A stretch of 30,713 nt of DNA from a virus. The stretch lies in IMG/VR virus record IMGVR_UViG_3300030104_002852, positions 1 through 30,713 of that record. One strand, given 5' to 3'. The notes under the pieces were generated by a model. That model was given only the letters and a program-made list of their open reading frames with translations, was not told where the DNA came from and made no database searches. This document shows positions 2,110 through 27,170 of this stretch, piece by piece; the first letter of the stretch is position 1, and each line of letters opens with the position of its first letter. Both the position numbers and the translations under genes were made by a program.

Positions 2110-2541
2110 CTAAATAACTGACTTCTTTATTGTTTTCTTTATGATGGTCTGTTGTTCTATTTCTTCATATTTTCTGCTATCTATTTCAAATTTAGAATTA
2201 CTGCTTGACCACAAACTATCATTTTTAAATATAATATCTGCATTATATTGTTCTAAATTCCAATTAACTACTACACATTTTGTTATGTTTAAAGTACCAA
2301 CATAAGTAAAAAGTAAAGGAGTAAATTCTGATTGTGATAAACTATAGATAACAATCTTTTTTTTGCCTATTTTTATAGTCCAACCATCTCCTAATTTTTT
2401 TATAGCTTTTATTGCACCAGTGTAATTAATTTCAATTCCTGCAACTTCTCCTGTTGTTTTAAAAAAAACATTCCCATTACTATAATCTATTTTTCCCCTT
2501 ATAGATTGTGGTTTGTTTAGTCTGTCTATTTTATCTATCAT
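2110..2541 (-). CDS. small tail-region protein, unknown
   Basis: A 143-residue protein whose ATG overlaps the TGA of the tail-hub gene (ATGA), so it is probably translated by coupling; no Shine-Dalgarno is visible. The sequence suggests beta strands (GNVFFKTTGEVAGIEINYTG), while the C-terminal 25 residues are charged. It lies between two tail-tip genes and is probably a virion or tail-assembly component. I do not recognise a family. Confidence 0.55.
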   Translation of the reverse strand: MIDKIDRLNKPQSIRGKIDYSNGNVFFKTTGEVAGIEINYTGAIKAIKKLGDGWTIKIGKKKIVIYSLSQSEFTPLLFTYVGTLNITKCVVVNWNLEQYNADIIFKNDSLWSSSNSKFEIDSRKYEEIEQQTIIKKTIKKSVI

Positions 2542-4991
2542 TCGTTTACAATCCTTTGTACCATAGCAACAACATCTAAAACATTTAAATTTCCATCTTG
2601 ATTCATATCAGCTGATTCAATTTCTTGTTCAGTAAAATCTGCAACTTGCACAATTGAATTTACAATTCTAACTATATCAAGGATATTTACAAAGCCATCT
2701 TGGTTAATATCTCCTGTCAATTCTGTATATGTGCCATTATCTGTATATGTGCCATTATCTGTATATGTGCCATTATCTGAATTAAGCTCATATATTGATT
2801 CAAAAGTTGTATTTCTCCAAATTAAAGAGCTGTAACTCATGTGGTGTAATTGTATAGCTTTTATTTTTACTGAATTAACTGATTTATTGGTTTCTGTTAC
2901 CATAAACAAAGGCAGTATATATTGCCCAGACCTTATAGGCATATCATTCATAATATTATCTAAGACATATTTTTCACCATATACTTTCTTTCCTAATATC
3001 ATTTTGTCAAATTCTACAAGGTCACCTATTTCTAAATTAAAATATTTCAAAGGCAATGTAAGCTCTACTATATTATGCTGATTTTGTCTAAATTGCAATA
3101 TGTGTTCAGCTAAATCTTTAGCTGTAGCACCATCTTGAATATATTTATTTTCAACAATAACATGAGAATCTATGTGGTTAATTGTACCATCTTCATTTGT
3201 TTTTACACCATAATAATTATCTGTTTGAAGATTTTGTGCAGTACCTGATTTAAAGTAACCACCATTAGCTTGTATTTTGCCTGTAGACTTAACAAAACTA
3301 TCTAAGCCTATATCATAGCCATACCTGACCTCAGTTTCAGTTAATATATCTTTTATAGGTGTTCTTTTGAAATTATATTTTATAACATCATACTCAAATA
3401 TTTTATATATATCTTCATTACCATTATAGGTATTTTTTATTGTATTAAATTTTAAAATATCAGATGATAAGCTTGTTATTAATTTTGAGCTTTGTGATAT
3501 TTCAGATATTAATTTTTTAGCACCTATTTTTTCAAATAAACTAAAATCTAAATTCCAGTCTATGTTTTCACCATTGCTGTTAATCTTGTGTTCTAATCTT
3601 GCCTCTCTAAGCAAATCAAAATTTACTGCCTCTGAATAACCTAATTCTTGCTCTAACAAATGAAAAATTACATCACAAGGTTTTTGTATTAATTCACTTG
3701 ATGGAGTATATTCACTAATTATTGGTTCATCAGGTAATATAGTTTGTATTGTTGGAATATCAGTATAAATTATTTTTGATGAACTCTCCATTGAATCAAA
3801 TTGTGTTTGTGCATCTTCTGAATATTGCACATAAGCTGAAGAATCTAAAGAATTCATAATAACTATAATGCTGTAGCTATCTGTTTGACTAGATATTTGT
3901 GTGCTTGTGTATGTTATAGGCACTTCAACTGATTCTCCTGCACTTATTGTATAAGATGTTTCATTGTACTCTATAGTTCCATATTGTGCTGCATCTTCTT
4001 CATCTAAACTAGCCTGCAACATATCATTAAAAGAAGTTAAATCATCTTCATAGTCAAAAGCATAGACATTAAATGTTCCATTAAAATCTGCATTTGATTC
4101 AACAGTAAAGATTCCTTCAGCAGTTTCTCCTGTTTCAACAAATAATTGTAAGTTTGATAAGCCTGTAATTGATAAGCTAAAGTCATAAGTTGGGGCTTGT
4201 AATACAGGTGCAGGATATGGTAAAAAAGCATAGCTTTTATTAGCTGAACCAATATGCTTTCCTGCTCCAATCGTAAATTGCCTTGACCCCACCCCATCAC
4301 TTACATATCCAATTGCTAAATTTAAGTGGATTAATACTTCTGTTTGTATTTGATATAAATTTATATATCTTTCTTGATATTCTTGAGTTTGATTTTCATC
4401 ATAAAATGGAGCATCTTCATTAATTGCCAAATCCCCTAGACCATTATTTAGGGTACTCCATATTGTGTTATTTTTAGCAGAAGAAGTATATCTTATTCTT
4501 TTTACACCACCTACTGTATCTATAGACCCTACAAAAAAAGGAATATCTACATATACTGATTCATTTTCAATGTTCCAATAAGGCTCTAAATAAGCCATGT
4601 GCTCTCCATTAGAGCTGTAACTTTCGTGTTCAACATACTCAAGCCCTGTGCTTGGTGGAGTCATCTTTAAATAATGTCCTAAAATTTTCTCATTATAATC
4701 ATAAACATAACCTATATTGCCTTCATTGTTGTAAGACATAGCATTACTACTAATTCCTGTAACTTCTGTAGTCCAGTATGTAGCCCAATCATAATTGTTG
4801 TATCCTTGACCTAAAGCCATAAGCCCTTCAATAAAAAATAACTTATCACTTGCATCAGGATTGTTTACAATATCAGTAAGCTTAGTCCATTCTGAAGTAG
4901 CTGTATTTCCATCATGAGGTACAATTTCTATTTTTAAAGTGTTATTGCCAATAATTATATCATTAACTTTTCTCCAAATAAGGGCTTGCAT
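2538..4991 (-). CDS. tail-tip/baseplate hub-like protein with C-terminal dockerin-like domain
   Basis: An 817-residue protein. Around residues 600-700 it carries a segment typical of tail-hub or Tal-like proteins (VELTLPLKYFNLEIGDLVEF). The C-terminus has three tandem DNGTYT units (about 739-756), then two calcium-binding loops of dockerin type: GDINQDGFVNILDIV (about 760) and ADMNQDGNLNVLDVV (about 794). Each shows the DxNxDG..N..D pattern followed by a hydrophobic helix. Type I dockerins bind cohesins in cellulosomes; in a phage tail such a domain could mediate Ca-dependent protein or glycan contact. The start ATG overlaps the previous stop (TAATG), and its ribosome binding site is formed by the Gly codons (GGAGGA) that end the upstream gene. 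Hub identity is moderate; the dockerin-like repeats are clear. Confidence 0.65.
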   Translation of the reverse strand: MQALIWRKVNDIIIGNNTLKIEIVPHDGNTATSEWTKLTDIVNNPDASDKLFFIEGLMALGQGYNNYDWATYWTTEVTGISSNAMSYNNEGNIGYVYDYNEKILGHYLKMTPPSTGLEYVEHESYSSNGEHMAYLEPYWNIENESVYVDIPFFVGSIDTVGGVKRIRYTSSAKNNTIWSTLNNGLGDLAINEDAPFYDENQTQEYQERYINLYQIQTEVLIHLNLAIGYVSDGVGSRQFTIGAGKHIGSANKSYAFLPYPAPVLQAPTYDFSLSITGLSNLQLFVETGETAEGIFTVESNADFNGTFNVYAFDYEDDLTSFNDMLQASLDEEDAAQYGTIEYNETSYTISAGESVEVPITYTSTQISSQTDSYSIIVIMNSLDSSAYVQYSEDAQTQFDSMESSSKIIYTDIPTIQTILPDEPIISEYTPSSELIQKPCDVIFHLLEQELGYSEAVNFDLLREARLEHKINSNGENIDWNLDFSLFEKIGAKKLISEISQSSKLITSLSSDILKFNTIKNTYNGNEDIYKIFEYDVIKYNFKRTPIKDILTETEVRYGYDIGLDSFVKSTGKIQANGGYFKSGTAQNLQTDNYYGVKTNEDGTINHIDSHVIVENKYIQDGATAKDLAEHILQFRQNQHNIVELTLPLKYFNLEIGDLVEFDKMILGKKVYGEKYVLDNIMNDMPIRSGQYILPLFMVTETNKSVNSVKIKAIQLHHMSYSSLIWRNTTFESIYELNSDNGTYTDNGTYTDNGTYTELTGDINQDGFVNILDIVRIVNSIVQVADFTEQEIESADMNQDGNLNVLDVVAMVQRIVNE
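2723..2776 (-). repeat. three tandem 18-bp repeats in the tail gene
   Basis: Three exact direct copies of CTGTATATGTGCCATTAT (2723-2740, 2741-2758, 2759-2776) encode DNGTYT units joining the hub protein to its dockerin-like domain. Being a multiple of three and perfectly identical, the array can change copy number without breaking the frame, so it is a likely variable-length linker. Confidence 0.9.
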
Positions 4992-17281: not shown

Positions 17282-18478
17282 TCAAACAACAACTTTGAAG
17301 ATTGTTTCTTGTTTGTTTGTTTTTTTAGCTGATTTTGCATTGTATGCTTCCAAACTTTTATCAATTTCATATCCTTTATTACTTACATTCTGTAAATCTA
17401 TTTTTATACCATCTCTATTTCCATTGTTATAAAATATATAACAATTCTGAGATGCTCTACCTGTCAAATTTAAAGCCTTTTCAGAGTAATCATTTGCACC
17501 TACCATACTTGAGCTTCTTGCATAATTATCTCCTACTCTTGCTGAATGAACATGTCCAAATATTACATAATCAATATCTATTGACCTAGTTGAGTACCTG
17601 CCCATTACTTGGTTTATTGCTTTCTCTGTTCCACCCTTTAATCCACCATGTCCATGTAGCAATAATAAGTTTTGACCTGCTATGTTTACTACTATTTCAC
17701 TTGGGTCACCATCTATAAAATTTACTTTAGAATCTTTAAATAAATACCTTAAGCAGTTATAAATCGTGTAATCATAGTTGTCAGTAGCTATTGCATCACT
17801 CCAACCTAGCTCTTTGTTGGCTCTACCTTCATTCCCAACCACACTTGCAACAGATACATTAAAATCTTTATTTAAGTCAAGTATTACTTGTTGCATAATA
17901 TCTACAGATAAAAAAGTAGCTTTAGCCCTGTTTGTAGCTTGGTTTAACAGTTCATCTAACCTTCTATCAGAATTAAGTAAATCTCCTGTTAAAGCCATAA
18001 CTACATTCGTTATATTAGCATTTGCAAAGTATTGTTTAGCTTTAGATACAAAATATTGACATCTTTGAGCTGCAACTTTAAAATCATACCTGTTATTGCT
18101 CAACTCTACCAACTCGTTAAAGTGCAAGTCACTAAATTGGATAACTCCTACTGCTTTGCTGCTACTCTTATGCTTTCTAGTTACCTTGTGTAGCTTATAA
18201 TTTTCAAATAGCTTTTTTAACTCTTTGCTGTATTCCTCTACAGCATTTTCAATTCTTGCATGTTCTCTAAAGCCCTTTCTTTCTATTCTTGTGACATCTT
18301 GGGCTTTTTGTTTTTCTTTCCTATATCTTACATTCTCTCTTAATAAATCTAAATCTGTGATAGGAAATACTGTTCTGCTTCTACATCTTTTGCACCTGTA
18401 TCTTTGTTTCCCATGCTCTATGCCACTCTTGGTTAATTGAATACTATAACAATTAGGGCAACCAAGCCTATCTTGCAT
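17282..18478 (-). CDS. zinc ribbon-calcineurin-like metallophosphoesterase fusion
   Basis: A 398-residue protein. Residues 7-32 form a zinc ribbon (C7PNC10, GKQRYRCKRC with C29 and C32), very like the N-terminal ribbon of IS1/InsA-type transposases. A charged helical linker (45-105) leads to a metallophosphoesterase domain with FSDLHF (D117, H119), LTGDLLN (D166), a VGNEGR motif where GNH(E/D) is usual (215-218), LLHGHG (275-277) and FGHVHS (308-311). Such enzymes hydrolyse phosphodiesters with two metal ions; with a nucleic-acid-binding ribbon, a nuclease role is plausible. The start overlaps the lysozyme stop region and has no visible Shine-Dalgarno, so coupling is likely. Confidence 0.75.
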   Translation of the reverse strand: MQDRLGCPNCYSIQLTKSGIEHGKQRYRCKRCRSRTVFPITDLDLLRENVRYRKEKQKAQDVTRIERKGFREHARIENAVEEYSKELKKLFENYKLHKVTRKHKSSSKAVGVIQFSDLHFNELVELSNNRYDFKVAAQRCQYFVSKAKQYFANANITNVVMALTGDLLNSDRRLDELLNQATNRAKATFLSVDIMQQVILDLNKDFNVSVASVVGNEGRANKELGWSDAIATDNYDYTIYNCLRYLFKDSKVNFIDGDPSEIVVNIAGQNLLLLHGHGGLKGGTEKAINQVMGRYSTRSIDIDYVIFGHVHSARVGDNYARSSSMVGANDYSEKALNLTGRASQNCYIFYNNGNRDGIKIDLQNVSNKGYEIDKSLEAYNAKSAKKTNKQETIFKVVV

Positions 18479-22927: not shown

Positions 22928-24286
22928 TTATACTGGTCTAGTTAATTGTGATAATAATGTGTTTTCTTCTTCTACTTCTTCATCATCTTCTGCTAAGTCT
23001 GCACCACTTCTTTCAAATAAATAATCCTCTGCTGAATCTCTATCAGGAAATCTGTCAGGGTCTTTCTGCATTAGTATATCTGCTTTATCTATTAAACCAT
23101 TAGATAGCTCCCATTCCCACTTATCTCTTTGCTCTTTGTCTGACAATACTTCCATACTTTCTTCAAAGTCTACCTTCTCAAGTTCTCCTGCATCTTTACC
23201 AAAATCAACTGCAATGATTAGCCTTTCTAGTTCAAAAAGTTGTTTCTCTATCTGCCTCCACTTAATAACATCAGATATTCTTTCATCAGTTAGCTCTTGG
23301 TTTCTTAGTTTAATAGCTACACCTGATTGTGCAGTAGTGCCCTCAACGAAGCTAATGTCTATGTGGTAGTTTTGTGCTAACATCTTATAAGCAGTAGTAA
23401 CTGCACTTGTTATTGATTCTACTGTGTTAGGTGGGCTTACTAGATTCATAGTACCATCTGCACCTAAAAAGCTAATCTTATCAGGCCCAACATCTAAATC
23501 ATCTTTCTCTATCATGCTTCCATTCACATAAATATAACCAAATGATTGGAACATTATGTTAGCATTCTTATTGGTTTCTGCTACATTGATAAGCAAATTA
23601 GTTTGTATTAAATCAGAGCTTGCATCTGTATCTAGGTAGCTTGATTCAGGCTTTCCATCTCTCCAACACTCAACAAATGGCAATACACCATAAGGATTAA
23701 TCATGTCAGGGTTAAGCTCATCTGTATAAATCTTTCCATTGTTATCAAATGTGTAGGTATTTTCTTTATCCCAGTACACATACAATTCAGGAGTGCCATC
23801 AAGTACACTATCTCTGCTTGATATAGGATAAACAATAGCAGTAGGCTTTAGTGGGTCATCACCATCAAATATAGGCTCATAATCAAATATAATATCATAT
23901 TCAATATGCTGCTCATCTTTATCATTGTATCTCATGCAAGGCTTTATCAGTACAGCATCAAGTAGGTTGCACATTCTTTCTGCTCTTTGCAGCTTAAAGT
24001 CTTTGTGGTGAAACATCAGAGGAGTTTCTTCTTTTGAGTAGGTTCTTGTAGGTGGCTTCATGTACACTAAGCTAACCCTGTCAACAATTCTTTTAGTAAC
24101 ATTGATATTAGCAGAAGGCACTTTTTCAAATAAAGTAGAATCAAAGTAACCCATAGTGTATGGCAAAGACCTGCCTTTATAGTATTCTAAAGCATCTAAT
24201 CTACTTTCTTTCCACTTGTTTTTTCTTTTCTGACTAGCATCATATTTAGCATTTAAGACAACTAGCTCTGCACTTGATTTTATCAT
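22928..24286 (-). CDS. portal protein
   Basis: A 452-residue protein forming the dodecameric DNA gate at the head vertex. It directly follows terminase and starts in ATGA overlap with it. It has the usual N-terminal helices (ESRLDALEYYKGRSLPYT), a central segment of strands (about 120-220), a long helix (about 300-350, VTTAYKMLAQNYHIDISFVE, then GVAIKLRNQELTDERI) and an acidic C-terminus. The GVAIK...E motif and total length fit the SPP1/Mu-type portal group. Confidence 0.85.
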   Translation of the reverse strand: MIKSSAELVVLNAKYDASQKRKNKWKESRLDALEYYKGRSLPYTMGYFDSTLFEKVPSANINVTKRIVDRVSLVYMKPPTRTYSKEETPLMFHHKDFKLQRAERMCNLLDAVLIKPCMRYNDKDEQHIEYDIIFDYEPIFDGDDPLKPTAIVYPISSRDSVLDGTPELYVYWDKENTYTFDNNGKIYTDELNPDMINPYGVLPFVECWRDGKPESSYLDTDASSDLIQTNLLINVAETNKNANIMFQSFGYIYVNGSMIEKDDLDVGPDKISFLGADGTMNLVSPPNTVESITSAVTTAYKMLAQNYHIDISFVEGTTAQSGVAIKLRNQELTDERISDVIKWRQIEKQLFELERLIIAVDFGKDAGELEKVDFEESMEVLSDKEQRDKWEWELSNGLIDKADILMQKDPDRFPDRDSAEDYLFERSGADLAEDDEEVEEENTLLSQLTRPV

Positions 24287-25548
24287 AATCTGTTAATACT
24301 CCCCAATGTTTGTTTGATGATTGGTTTTTCCCAATGAACTGCATATCCTAGTGCATCACTCATGTGTGTAATATCTTTGTTGCTCTTATCTATTTCTCTA
24401 GTTCCTTGTTTATTTGCTACTTTTTCTAAGTCCTCAATAAGTGCTTTACACTTTGGATCTATTATCAGGTTGCCATCTAATGCTCTATTGACTGCATTTA
24501 CTCTATCAACTACAAGTGGATTAGTCTTTAATGCTTTAATCTTAAAGCCACTTTTCATAAGTAAATCTATATCACTAAACATAGCTGAACTTCCTCTCTT
24601 TACTCCTGTTGCATCAGGATATGCTACATATTCACTATTTGGGTATTTCTGTCTAATTGTATTAGCCATTCTTTCTGTTAGTAAATCACCACTACCACCA
24701 TGTGATAAGGCTATACAATCAAACACTTTTATTTGGGGTTGTTGTTCGTATAATTGAAATAAAACTGCACATTCAGGCTCACAGTTGAAGTCAATTCCAA
24801 TTCTGACTGGTCTTGATCTATCATAACTGACTTCTGATACATTGGTATCTCTGTTGAACTGATAGTATGTTTGACCTTGTTGTAAATTGACAAATTCACC
24901 TAATGAGTATGCCTTGAGTAAAGTTTTATCATAGTTTTCTTCTAAAAGTTTTAAATAAGACTTTGGTAAATATACATTATCTTTTGTTTTTCCCCTAACT
25001 AAAAATTTGTTATCATCTGCCTTTTCAACCATTAGGGTGTAAGTGTACTTCATTCCCTCAGGTGTTGTGCAGATAAATATCTCAGGGTTTTCACAATCTC
25101 TCATTCTACCAAGTGCTTTGTTAAATGCTAATTCACAGTATCTATAACTGGATATATCAAACTCATCAAAGCCACAATAAGAAAGAGATACACCAATAAT
25201 CTTATCAGGCTTAACCATTTGGAATATCTTAATGTTTCCATAAGCTGTTTTGATTGTGTGTTTAGATACATTGTAATTGTAATCAATGCCTTTATCTCTT
25301 AGTATATCAAGAAAGGGTGGTATAAATACTTCTTCTGCTAATGAGTAGGTAGGATATATAATCCAACCATTGCTAAAACCTTCTTTATTCTTTCTTGTAA
25401 TGTGATTGATAAATGTCTTATGCAGGAAGCTATATGTTTTGCCTGATCCAAATCCACCAACATAAGCATTGATTTTCTTTTTACTTTTCAGGAAATCCCA
25501 TTGGTGTGGGAAATAATCTTCTTTGTGTATTGTTAAGTTAGATGCCAT
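24283..25548 (-). CDS. terL: terminase large subunit
   Basis: A 421-residue DNA-packaging motor. The ATPase part has Walker A GGFGSGKT (about 31-38), Walker B-like YCGFDEFD and the coupling motif FICTTPEG. The nuclease part has GIDFNCEP, YPDATG and HMSDALGYAVHW with the expected acidic residues. The ATG at 25548 is used; the in-frame TTG before it is a weaker choice. It overlaps the small subunit gene by 11 bases. It carries three GATC sites (24456, 24815, 25445), unlike everything downstream to 662. Confidence 0.93.
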   Translation of the reverse strand: MASNLTIHKEDYFPHQWDFLKSKKKINAYVGGFGSGKTYSFLHKTFINHITRKNKEGFSNGWIIYPTYSLAEEVFIPPFLDILRDKGIDYNYNVSKHTIKTAYGNIKIFQMVKPDKIIGVSLSYCGFDEFDISSYRYCELAFNKALGRMRDCENPEIFICTTPEGMKYTYTLMVEKADDNKFLVRGKTKDNVYLPKSYLKLLEENYDKTLLKAYSLGEFVNLQQGQTYYQFNRDTNVSEVSYDRSRPVRIGIDFNCEPECAVLFQLYEQQPQIKVFDCIALSHGGSGDLLTERMANTIRQKYPNSEYVAYPDATGVKRGSSAMFSDIDLLMKSGFKIKALKTNPLVVDRVNAVNRALDGNLIIDPKCKALIEDLEKVANKQGTREIDKSNKDITHMSDALGYAVHWEKPIIKQTLGSINRL

Positions 25549-25849
25549 CAAACACTATATCATCAATAGGTTTAATTTCTGTAAGCTCTTGCTTGTCTGT
25601 TTGTTCTAGCATTTGTTTTCCTAGCCATATTAACATAGGCACAGACCCTTTTTCTGCTGCTTGAATCTGCATCTTTCTGAGCCTTATTTTTCCAATCTGC
25701 TTCCCTTTTGTAATATTTGTGGAATAACTCTTAGATATTAAATCTTTTGAACAACCAAAAAATGAAGCTATTTCTGTATTAGTACAGCCTAGTGCTGCTA
25801 GTTTTTCTACTTGCTCAGGATCTATATTATATTTTTTTGGTCTTGCCAT
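25538..25849 (-). CDS. terS: terminase small subunit
   Basis: A 103-residue DNA-recognition subunit. A helix-turn-helix lies at about 10-40 (EQVEKLAALGCTNTEIASFF, then GCSKDLISKSY), followed by basic helices and an acidic C-terminus that would contact the large subunit. The ATG overlaps the stop of the oxygenase gene (TAATG), and the oxygenase's terminal Arg codons (AGG AGA) supply its ribosome binding site. Confidence 0.85.
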   Translation of the reverse strand: MARPKKYNIDPEQVEKLAALGCTNTEIASFFGCSKDLISKSYSTNITKGKQIGKIRLRKMQIQAAEKGSVPMLIWLGKQMLEQTDKQELTEIKPIDDIVFDGI

Positions 25850-26583
25850 TATATTGTTCTCCTTAAAGGATAAAATACAAAACTATTTCTGTATCCATCT
25901 TGATCTGCTTCTATAGGTGTTACTCCATGCATATCTCTCCATGCAGGATAAACTAACATTGAGCCATCTGTAGATGCTATTGTTGCACCATACTTAGGAA
26001 CAGACAAATCTCCTCCTCTAGCTTTCCTTTTTTTATAGAATATGCAGTTTACTGTGTTTTTTAAATTTGCATTATCTTGATGGTAATCTGCACTTATATT
26101 TGCATTGTTAATAGATGATGTAAACATTTTTCCAATCCTAAACTGCTCAGGAATAGCATTTGCTATAATTTTAACCTGCCTATGGTATATCTCAGGTGCA
26201 TATTTTTTTATTACTTTTTCAGCTTCTATATTTAGGGCCAGCATAGCCCTTACAAACTTTCTTGCTTTCTTATCTCTATGTACTGATGATTGTAGTGTGT
26301 GCTTTCTTAGTCTTGATGGAGGTATTGATCCTATTATTGTTGAATACTGCTCTACACCTGAAGCTCTCCTCATAATGCTCTTAGGTACTCTGTCAGACAA
26401 AAGCTCTTTATTAGCTATATTAAGTAAATTAAATACTTTATCAGGAACTTTATTTATGTAAAAGCCTATAAGTTCTCCATTGTGTATAAACAGGCTATCT
26501 TCTGTTATGTTAGGAGCTGAATCTGTTGGATTATCTCCAACTTTTTCTGTAAAAGGGATTTCCTCTAATGTTACTTCTTGCAT
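25849..26583 (-). CDS. TET/JBP-like 2-oxoglutarate/Fe(II) oxygenase
   Basis: A 244-residue protein; catalytic residues lie in the C-terminal half. FTSSINNANISADYHQDNAN gives the HxDxxN iron motif (H168, D170, N173), followed by the GGDL turn (190-193), YPAWRDMHGVTPI with the distal iron ligand H219, and DGYRNSFVFY with R232 for 2-oxoglutarate. This order, and the N..n..a.H.D..N lead-in, match the TET/JBP family, which oxidises the methyl group of 5-methylcytosine or thymine in DNA and is known in phages. The N-terminal 140 residues are helical and not recognised. It starts 13 bases inside the ParB-like gene without a visible Shine-Dalgarno and is coupled to terS. The substrate cannot be read from sequence, and no DNA methyltransferase is in the window. 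Confidence 0.8.
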   Translation of the reverse strand: MQEVTLEEIPFTEKVGDNPTDSAPNITEDSLFIHNGELIGFYINKVPDKVFNLLNIANKELLSDRVPKSIMRRASGVEQYSTIIGSIPPSRLRKHTLQSSVHRDKKARKFVRAMLALNIEAEKVIKKYAPEIYHRQVKIIANAIPEQFRIGKMFTSSINNANISADYHQDNANLKNTVNCIFYKKRKARGGDLSVPKYGATIASTDGSMLVYPAWRDMHGVTPIEADQDGYRNSFVFYPLRRTI

Positions 26584-27170
26584 TTTTTTAATGCATCTAA
26601 AAATATTGAATCTACTGGTAGCTTTTTATCTTTATAATCACTTAGCAGCATCTTAATCTCTTCGTACATTTCATTTCTTATTGGTATCATAACAGATTTA
26701 AGAGCTAAGCCTTCCATCTCATTAATCTTGTCATCTATATCATAATCATCTAGAGCTGATTCGTCAACATCAATACCTAAATCTCCTATGTCAAAATCCT
26801 CAAAGCCCCAGCCCTTCAACTCCTCTATATCAAAAGTATTTGCTAAAACATCATAATCCCATGATCCTACATTTTTATTAAGTCTTATATTTAATTCTCT
26901 TTCTTTTTCGTAAGATAAATTTAGCTCTATGCAAGGAATTTTATCTATTCCAATACTTTTAGCTACTCTAGCTCTTTGATGTCCACCTATAATAATATTT
27001 TTTCTATCTTTGTTTTTGTTTATTATGATAGGATCTACTAAGCCAAATCTTTCAATAGAATCTTTTAAATGTTTAAACTGAGATTCTGTAAGTTGTCTAG
27101 GATTGTACTCTGCAAATATTAAATCATTTACATCTTTTGTTACTATATTTTTTATGTTTGCCATAGCCAT
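26571..27170 (-). CDS. ParB/Srx-fold nuclease-like protein
   Basis: A 199-residue protein with an N-terminal ParB domain: FAEYNPRQLTESQFKHLKDS (about 19-38), FGLVDPIIINKNKDRKNIII (42-61) and the GGHQRARVAKSIG box (62-74) that binds nucleotide or acts as nuclease in this fold. A second part (RELNIRLNKNVGSWDYDVLA, then GWGFEDFDIGDLG) is typical of ParB-like proteins found beside phage DNA methylases and terminases. There is no helix-turn-helix partner for plasmid-type partition, so DNA modification, packaging or nicking roles are more likely. Two starts (27170 and 27164) are possible; neither has a clear ribosome binding site. Confidence 0.8.
   Translation of the reverse strand: MAMANIKNIVTKDVNDLIFAEYNPRQLTESQFKHLKDSIERFGLVDPIIINKNKDRKNIIIGGHQRARVAKSIGIDKIPCIELNLSYEKERELNIRLNKNVGSWDYDVLANTFDIEELKGWGFEDFDIGDLGIDVDESALDDYDIDDKINEMEGLALKSVMIPIRNEMYEEIKMLLSDYKDKKLPVDSIFLDALKKCKK

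Follow-up and report, generated by a model that had tools for sequence, protein, structure and literature searches.

A TET/JBP-family oxygenase gene paired with a ParB-like gene beside the terminase genes of a virus: a putative thymine-modifying module

Which base does a phage TET/JBP oxygenase act upon when its gene is wedged between a ParB-like gene and the terminase genes, and what do these neighbours tell us about its function? The question is raised by the right end of a 30,713-nucleotide stretch of viral DNA (positions 1 to 30,713 of IMG/VR record IMGVR_UViG_3300030104_002852, the whole of which is hereafter the window), whose minus strand encodes, in this order, an HNH protein, a RusA-like protein, a ParB-like protein, a TET/JBP oxygenase, a terminase small subunit-like protein (TerS) and the terminase large subunit (TerL). 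The answer that we favour, with a probability of roughly 0.55, is that the ParB–TET pair is a module converting thymine in phage DNA to 5-hydroxymethyluracil (5hmU), which would be left bare, with the ParB-like protein as an accessory.

The genes concerned overlap one another. The ParB-like gene (26571..27170, minus strand, 199 aa) and the TET gene (25849..26583, minus strand, 244 aa) share 13 nt (26571..26583), and TET shares a single base, common to its stop codon and the start codon of the next gene (TAATG), with terS (25538..25849, minus strand; phrog_309 terminase small subunit, E 2.4e-7), which is followed by terL (24283..25551, minus strand; PF03237 Terminase_6N, E 2.7e-9). The coordinates and overlaps given in an earlier note on this DNA proved exact when the ORFs were rechecked. 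The same note had read the C-terminal Arg-Arg codons of TET (AGG AGA) as the terS ribosome binding site, and they do provide a Shine-Dalgarno-like AGGAGA ahead of that gene; since a feature of this type was not seen at the equivalent TET/terS junction of most of the relatives displayed, we regard it as ordinary gene packing. Elsewhere on the minus strand of the window lie a large tail-region protein (2538-4991) with a C-terminal domain of the dockerin type I family (PF00404, E 1.8e-10), which is unusual for a phage and possibly mediates attachment to cohesin-bearing surfaces, and a calcineurin-like phosphoesterase (17282-18478), whose N-terminus looks like a zinc ribbon (CPNC...CKRC) and whose gene lies between the lysozyme gene and structural genes.

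Judged from its sequence, modelled fold and active-site residues, the oxygenase belongs to the TET/JBP dioxygenases, which use Fe(II) and 2-oxoglutarate (2OG). The profile search proposed in the earlier note matches it to Pfam Tet_JBP (PF12851; E 9.8e-13, 48.1 bits against a curated cut-off of 34.9), and the complete HxDxxN...H...R set described there is present, with H168, D170 and H219 as metal ligands, R232 as the 2OG-binding residue, N173 at the base-reading position and Y238 at the stacking position. This active site is intact in the relatives compared, H168, D170, N173, H219 and R232 being invariant across an alignment of 49 relatives, the profile of which finds TET2, NgTet1 and CMD1 as its sole matches in the PDB. 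An AlphaFold2 model built on an alignment of 44 viral sequences, leaving out those from phage collections, has a pLDDT of 95.4 and a pTM of 0.92, and its best structural match is TET2 (Z 19.6 over 238 residues), followed by NgTET1 (18.9), CcTet (17.2) and CMD1 (16.4); these four enzymes fill rows 1-16 of the fold matches (Z 16.1-19.6). A better match to prolyl hydroxylases, which the earlier note had named as one outcome that would speak against its assignment, was not found. Identities as a prolyl hydroxylase or an AlkB enzyme were rejected, the fold similarity to these classes being lower than to TET enzymes (AlkB-type/FTO ~14, PHD2 12.7). For the TET of the Methylophilales phage Melnitz, phmmer found no PDB match.

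Databases tell a different story, as phrog_6059 and RefSeq/GenBank entries (Nigel, KayaCho, MED4-184) name this TET/JBP protein "queuine tRNA-ribosyltransferase", and one record calls it "DpdA-like". That the window protein is a tRNA-guanine transglycosylase (TGT) or DpdA-like enzyme, as these labels say, has virtually no chance of being correct: Tet_JBP is the only Pfam match in it and in Nigel gp2, with no TGT domain found by Pfam in the window protein, the predicted fold is TET-like and the PDB profile matches are to TET2, NgTet1 and CMD1 only. The survey described below corrects a widespread mislabel of phage TET/JBP proteins. Another label concerns MED4-184, whose gene CPAG_00033, named "DNA methylase", reads as a ParB protein from its sequence, which disposes of this gene as a methyltransferase adjoining the closest named relative of the window TET; the actual methyltransferase-like gene of that phage is CPAG_00034, which is FkbM-type and not a cytosine-5 methyltransferase (C5-MTase).

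The partner encoded upstream (26571-27170, minus strand) is ParB-like in its NTP-binding part, and need not be a partition protein. It matches ParB_N (PF02195) above the Pfam cut-off with E 1.9e-10, and consists of an N-terminal ParB/Srx nucleotide-binding domain (~residues 7-101) followed by a short helical C-terminus. Profile matches to Noc/ParB CTPase domains reach E ~1e-13, the fold match to ParB/Noc (Z 13) is limited to residues 6-103, and nearly all fold matches of the full-length, 199-aa query stop by ~residue 126; a search with the full-length protein, rather than with its C-terminus alone, recognised no parS-binding HTH domain. ParB-like proteins are found near other base-modifying enzymes. 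DpdB, a ParB-like ATPase, assists base insertion by another phage-type base-modifying enzyme in Dpd systems (PMC12839542), and ParB genes also adjoin the cytosine carboxymethyltransferase CmoX, where their function is stated as unknown (PMC12783734). By analogy with these two cases, we propose that the ParB-like protein is probably a dedicated accessory of TET that lets the oxygenase reach the genome or act on it processively. Nuclease and NTPase functions have been reported for other ParB-like domains (PMC5512222), so that opening the DNA by nicking it would be an alternative role. Phage enzymes that modify bases, it seems, are repeatedly partnered by ParB-like proteins.

How general the pairing is was assessed by scanning viral contigs, which yielded at least 585 relatives; 226 TET loci (up to 80 per scan, taken by similarity) were analysed, and partners were counted in the 215 of them whose upstream sequence extends to 400 bp or more. 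TET is preceded by a ParB gene in 158 loci, by a C5-MTase gene in 48, by neither in nine and by both in none. On a quick-search tree of 85 representatives, the partner changes once. ParB pairing, which the earlier note had picked out in this one locus, is a conserved property of the lineage to which the window TET belongs. The two groups also differ at the residue three positions after the metal-binding Asp, which contacts N4 of 5-methylcytosine (5mC) in TETs of solved structure (Asn1387 in TET2, Asp234 in NgTet1, Asp350 in CMD1; PMC11040006). It is Asn in 163/163 ParB-linked TETs and Asp in all 46 of the C5-MTase-linked TETs in which that position is readable, although, because the two groups are separate clades, this split is one evolutionary contrast and not 209 independent ones. 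The window TET falls on the ParB-linked (Cooper/Nigel-type) side, with a ParB gene upstream on the same strand and N173, and not on the C5-MTase-linked side, as no PF00145 match is found in the 31,422-bp record that contains the window and Asp is replaced by N173. This residue by itself does not indicate thymine, because the 5mC-specific TET2 also has Asn there; either thymine or 5mC could be read, so that Asn is compatible with thymine but no proof of it.

A further comparison concerns the genes that accompany the pair. In the window, the slot between ParB and TET is empty, whereas in relatives it holds an FkbM methyltransferase, a glycosyltransferase (GT), or a kinase, an amidotransferase and an ADDT (amino acid:DNA transferase, a family tied to thymine hypermodification, whose substrate in these phages is presumed on the strength of the family name and of what related phages do). 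Tailoring genes sit in this slot in the clade of the window and mostly after TET in an actinophage clade, and the kinds seen are a trio of P-loop kinase, GATase_6 and ADDT, GT-type proteins (one above the PF20691 cut-off for TET-associated glycosyltransferase, or TAGT, the others weakly TAGT-like) and FkbM methyltransferases. ORFs were called mechanically in this survey, and "no tailoring gene" means that none was recognised; profiles for "kinT" (the Tonitrus kinase) and "TerSm" matched too broadly and were excluded from the conclusions. On the 85-representative tree, a minimum of 31 changes in the tailoring class beside ParB-linked TETs (none, FkbM, GT or ADDT) is needed; when only well-supported branches are counted, ADDT, GT and none still require 11 changes or more apiece. 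The window itself groups with other bare loci, seven rows in all (support 85), and this group is nested in a well-supported set of 26 representative rows, in which ADDT is found in four, GT-type genes in seven and FkbM in seven. ParB–TET is therefore a core of wide distribution, in which one base-decorating enzyme has repeatedly been exchanged for another.

Several of these cassettes are worth recording in their own right. Between ParB and TET, L017:8024-10004, L028:2322-4908 and similar loci encode a kinase, a class II glutamine amidotransferase and an ADDT, joined in L028 by a GNAT-like gene, which makes them candidates for a thymine hypermodification pathway in which one step donates an amide or ammonia. 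The cassette proteins of L026:5953-6786, L039:4999-5712 and L042:9123-10004 (237-293 aa), none of which matches a Pfam family above cut-off, are candidate glycosyltransferases for base-J-like DNA; those of L026 and L039 are distantly TAGT-like by custom profiles, and that of L042 is unmatched by them. Three genes before TET in L075:7754-10004 (nucleotidyltransferase-like, HAD/kinase-like and TAGT) suggest that the activated sugar for a thymine glycoside is produced by this phage itself. Finally, L034:4819-6138 contains two adjacent short C5-MTase-like ORFs with SPPC motifs, 4 kb upstream of a bare ParB–TET pair.

The favoured mechanism is as follows. The ParB–TET pair would be a post-replicative DNA-modification module, in which thymine, flipped out of the double-stranded DNA of the phage itself, is hydroxylated at its methyl group by the TET/JBP enzyme in a reaction that uses Fe(II), O2 and 2-oxoglutarate. 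The product would be 5hmU, possibly oxidised further, and the ParB-like nucleotide-binding protein, acting on DNA, would aid the oxygenase. Oxidation of thymine already in DNA to 5hmU is biochemically known from kinetoplastid JBP. In many relatives, a second enzyme of the same operon would then decorate the hydroxyl (by amino-acid transfer, glycosylation or possibly methylation); with its tailoring slot empty, the window phage is predicted to end with plain 5hmU, made late in infection and mainly serving to blunt host restriction. This protective purpose is inferred because phage DNA with 5hmdU-derived bases resists restriction (PMC6449724). That thymine is the substrate is suggested by the neighbours of related enzymes, ADDT lying beside 45 ParB-linked TETs and none of the C5-MTase-linked ones. 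Furthermore, no gene of the thymidylate-synthase family, which would supply 5hmdU by way of the nucleotide pool, was recognised in the record of the window or in any of the 21 records searched, 20 of them ParB-type; with the pool route missing, 5hmU would have to arise by oxidation within DNA.

The earlier note had left three substrate options open, namely thymine, 5mC made by the host, or a system with further genes beyond the right edge of the window, and it is the first that the gene neighbours of relatives support best, the other two ranking below. Oxidation of host-made 5mC (CpG or other) to 5hmC, by which the phage would escape methyl-directed restriction, is improbable in our view, even though the best-matching solved TETs (TET2, NgTET1 and CMD1) act on 5mC, N173 equals N1387 of TET2, and the extreme CpG depletion of the window would be expected if host CpG were methylated and deaminated. 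The window has just 50 CpG sites in 30.7 kb (observed/expected 0.06, and 0.11 across codon boundaries, with 29 seen for 257 expected), and most ParB–TET relatives are far higher in CpG, with values of 0.23 in the sister contig L006 and 0.44 to ~1.3 in others. Since most relatives with the same pair lack this depletion, it is not explained by TET and was rejected as a footprint of the enzyme; a host that methylates CpG, or restriction directed at CpG, may be the cause. The shortage of GATC (27 sites in the window vs 74 expected), which is completely absent from several related contigs of both TET lineages (L016, L021, L031, L043, L071 and L087), suggests avoidance of a GATC-directed host system. 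Hence both signals invoked by the earlier note in favour of base modification are real, but their tie to TET is unsupported, and they look like host or lineage properties. Also against 5mC, the C5-MTase-linked phage TETs, which lack ParB and have Asp as the base-reading residue, stand apart in a clade of their own, the clade of the window includes members with ADDT and thymine-type partners, and a C5-MTase was matched in only two of ~40 ParB-type records searched as a whole, which means that most of these cannot make 5mC themselves. The bare relative L034, with its two short C5-MTase-like genes, speaks against the thymine reading.

It is also possible, though unlikely, that TET does make 5hmU and that a tailoring gene beyond the ends of the record turns it into a larger hypermodified base. 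Many relatives carry such genes, and the record (31,422 bp) may be incomplete by several kb, MED4-184 and MED4-117 having 38-39 kb against its 31.4 kb. However, where tailoring genes were seen, they either separate ParB from TET or come immediately after TET, and both places are empty here, and the annotated genomes with the bare ParB-TET-terS-terL order (Nigel, KayaCho and Margaery) have no C5-MTase, ADDT or TAGT anywhere. As to what the record does hold, the absence of methyltransferase and glycosyltransferase genes reported by the earlier note extends, for the families searched (C5-MTase, PF00145; TAGT, PF20691; ADDT, PF18724; FkbM; Dam), to the whole of this possibly incomplete sequence; the few hundred bases to the right of the window contain small ORFs only, and profiles built in this study for ADDT, kinase and amidotransferase gave no match anywhere in the window. 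The remaining claim of the earlier note, that modification is coupled to packaging, survives in part. The terminase link is a real, conserved association, but one of gene order only: among ParB-linked loci with enough flank, 77 of 93 have TerL no more than 5 kb downstream, against none of nine C5-linked loci, while gene order is silent on timing. That TET acts with terminase on DNA entering the capsid, for which this TET-terS-terL order and the translational overlap of the genes in the window could be invoked, is very unlikely, as the terminase of Tonitrus is ~4 kb from its ParB–TET pair with several genes between, the pair of Bolt007 is in a different region without a nearby terminase, and no ParB–TET fusion was found in the surveyed loci. 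Compact overlapping genes are the norm at the start of phage late operons, and since this location explains the association, physical coupling is not needed.

There is also a broader proposal, which we hold with slightly less than even confidence: phage TETs would fall into two classes, those with ParB and Asn oxidising thymine in finished DNA and those with a C5-MTase and Asp oxidising 5mC, and the ParB–TET core would be a tailoring platform, so that uncultured phages carry plain 5hmU (as in the window) and amino-acylated, O-methylated or glucosylated (base-J-like) thymine. Hundreds of viral contigs would then be predicted to make 5hmU from thymine already in DNA, with the attached tailoring enzyme predicting the final base, and a single residue is proposed to tell thymine-reading from 5mC-reading phage TETs, which would be useful for sequencing-chemistry enzymes. 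Glucosyl-5hmU was unreported in phage genomes as of 2019 (PMC6449724).

How does this locus compare with known systems? Kinetoplastid JBP1/2, which act in base J synthesis, are of the same dioxygenase family, with thymine hydroxylation as the proposed reaction; genes of the TET-associated glycosyltransferase type occur in relatives of the window, whereas its own, possibly incomplete record has no PF20691 match. Phage TET systems were reportedly predicted by Iyer et al. in 2013, which together with Burke et al. in 2021 is said to be the original prediction, and the joint action of a phage TET and a methyltransferase was reportedly demonstrated in a 2021 study. The Melnitz type shares the TET/JBP domain with the window, but has an HhaI-like C5-MTase next to TET, no ParB, no nearby terL and Asp at the base-reading position. 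Thymidine hypermodification systems (M6, ViI, phiW-14 and Tonitrus) have a base derived from 5hmU, as proposed for the window. In M6, ViI and phiW-14, 5hmdU is incorporated from the nucleotide pool, and a kinase and transferases act later (PMC6449724), whereas the pool route and the later steps are both missing from the record of the window, a PF18724 match (ADDT/aGPT-PPlase transferase) being absent from this possibly incomplete sequence. The Rhodococcus phage Tonitrus shares the ParB and TET pair in a ParB-TET-ADDT-kinase locus, which its authors describe as a thymidine hypermodification system (PMC11955845). In Kozie and MO526, TET is followed by ADDT (PF18724) and then by the terminase region, while the Arthrobacter phage Bolt007 has ParB-TET-glycosyltransferase-deacetylase, away from terminase. 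The window is, in fact, one more example of a known phage arrangement, and its ParB-TET-terS-terL order is not new, being that of the mycobacteriophages Nigel and KayaCho and of the Microbacterium phage Margaery. Mycobacteriophages of cluster B (Nigel gp2, KayaCho gp2) have a TET of the same family, overlapping ParB/TET genes and no tailoring gene, as in the window, but with ~25-28% identity, actinobacterial hosts and larger genomes (~70 kb); a recent alignment takes gp2 of mycobacteriophage Cooper as its phage TET/JBP reference (PMC12730594). Among named relatives, the closest are the Prochlorococcus siphophages MED4-184, MED4-117 and P-HS2, whose TET is 45% identical and which, like the window, have ParB upstream and a terS-like gene and terL downstream, but, unlike it, an FkbM-type methyltransferase (PF05050, E 4e-11) between ParB and TET.
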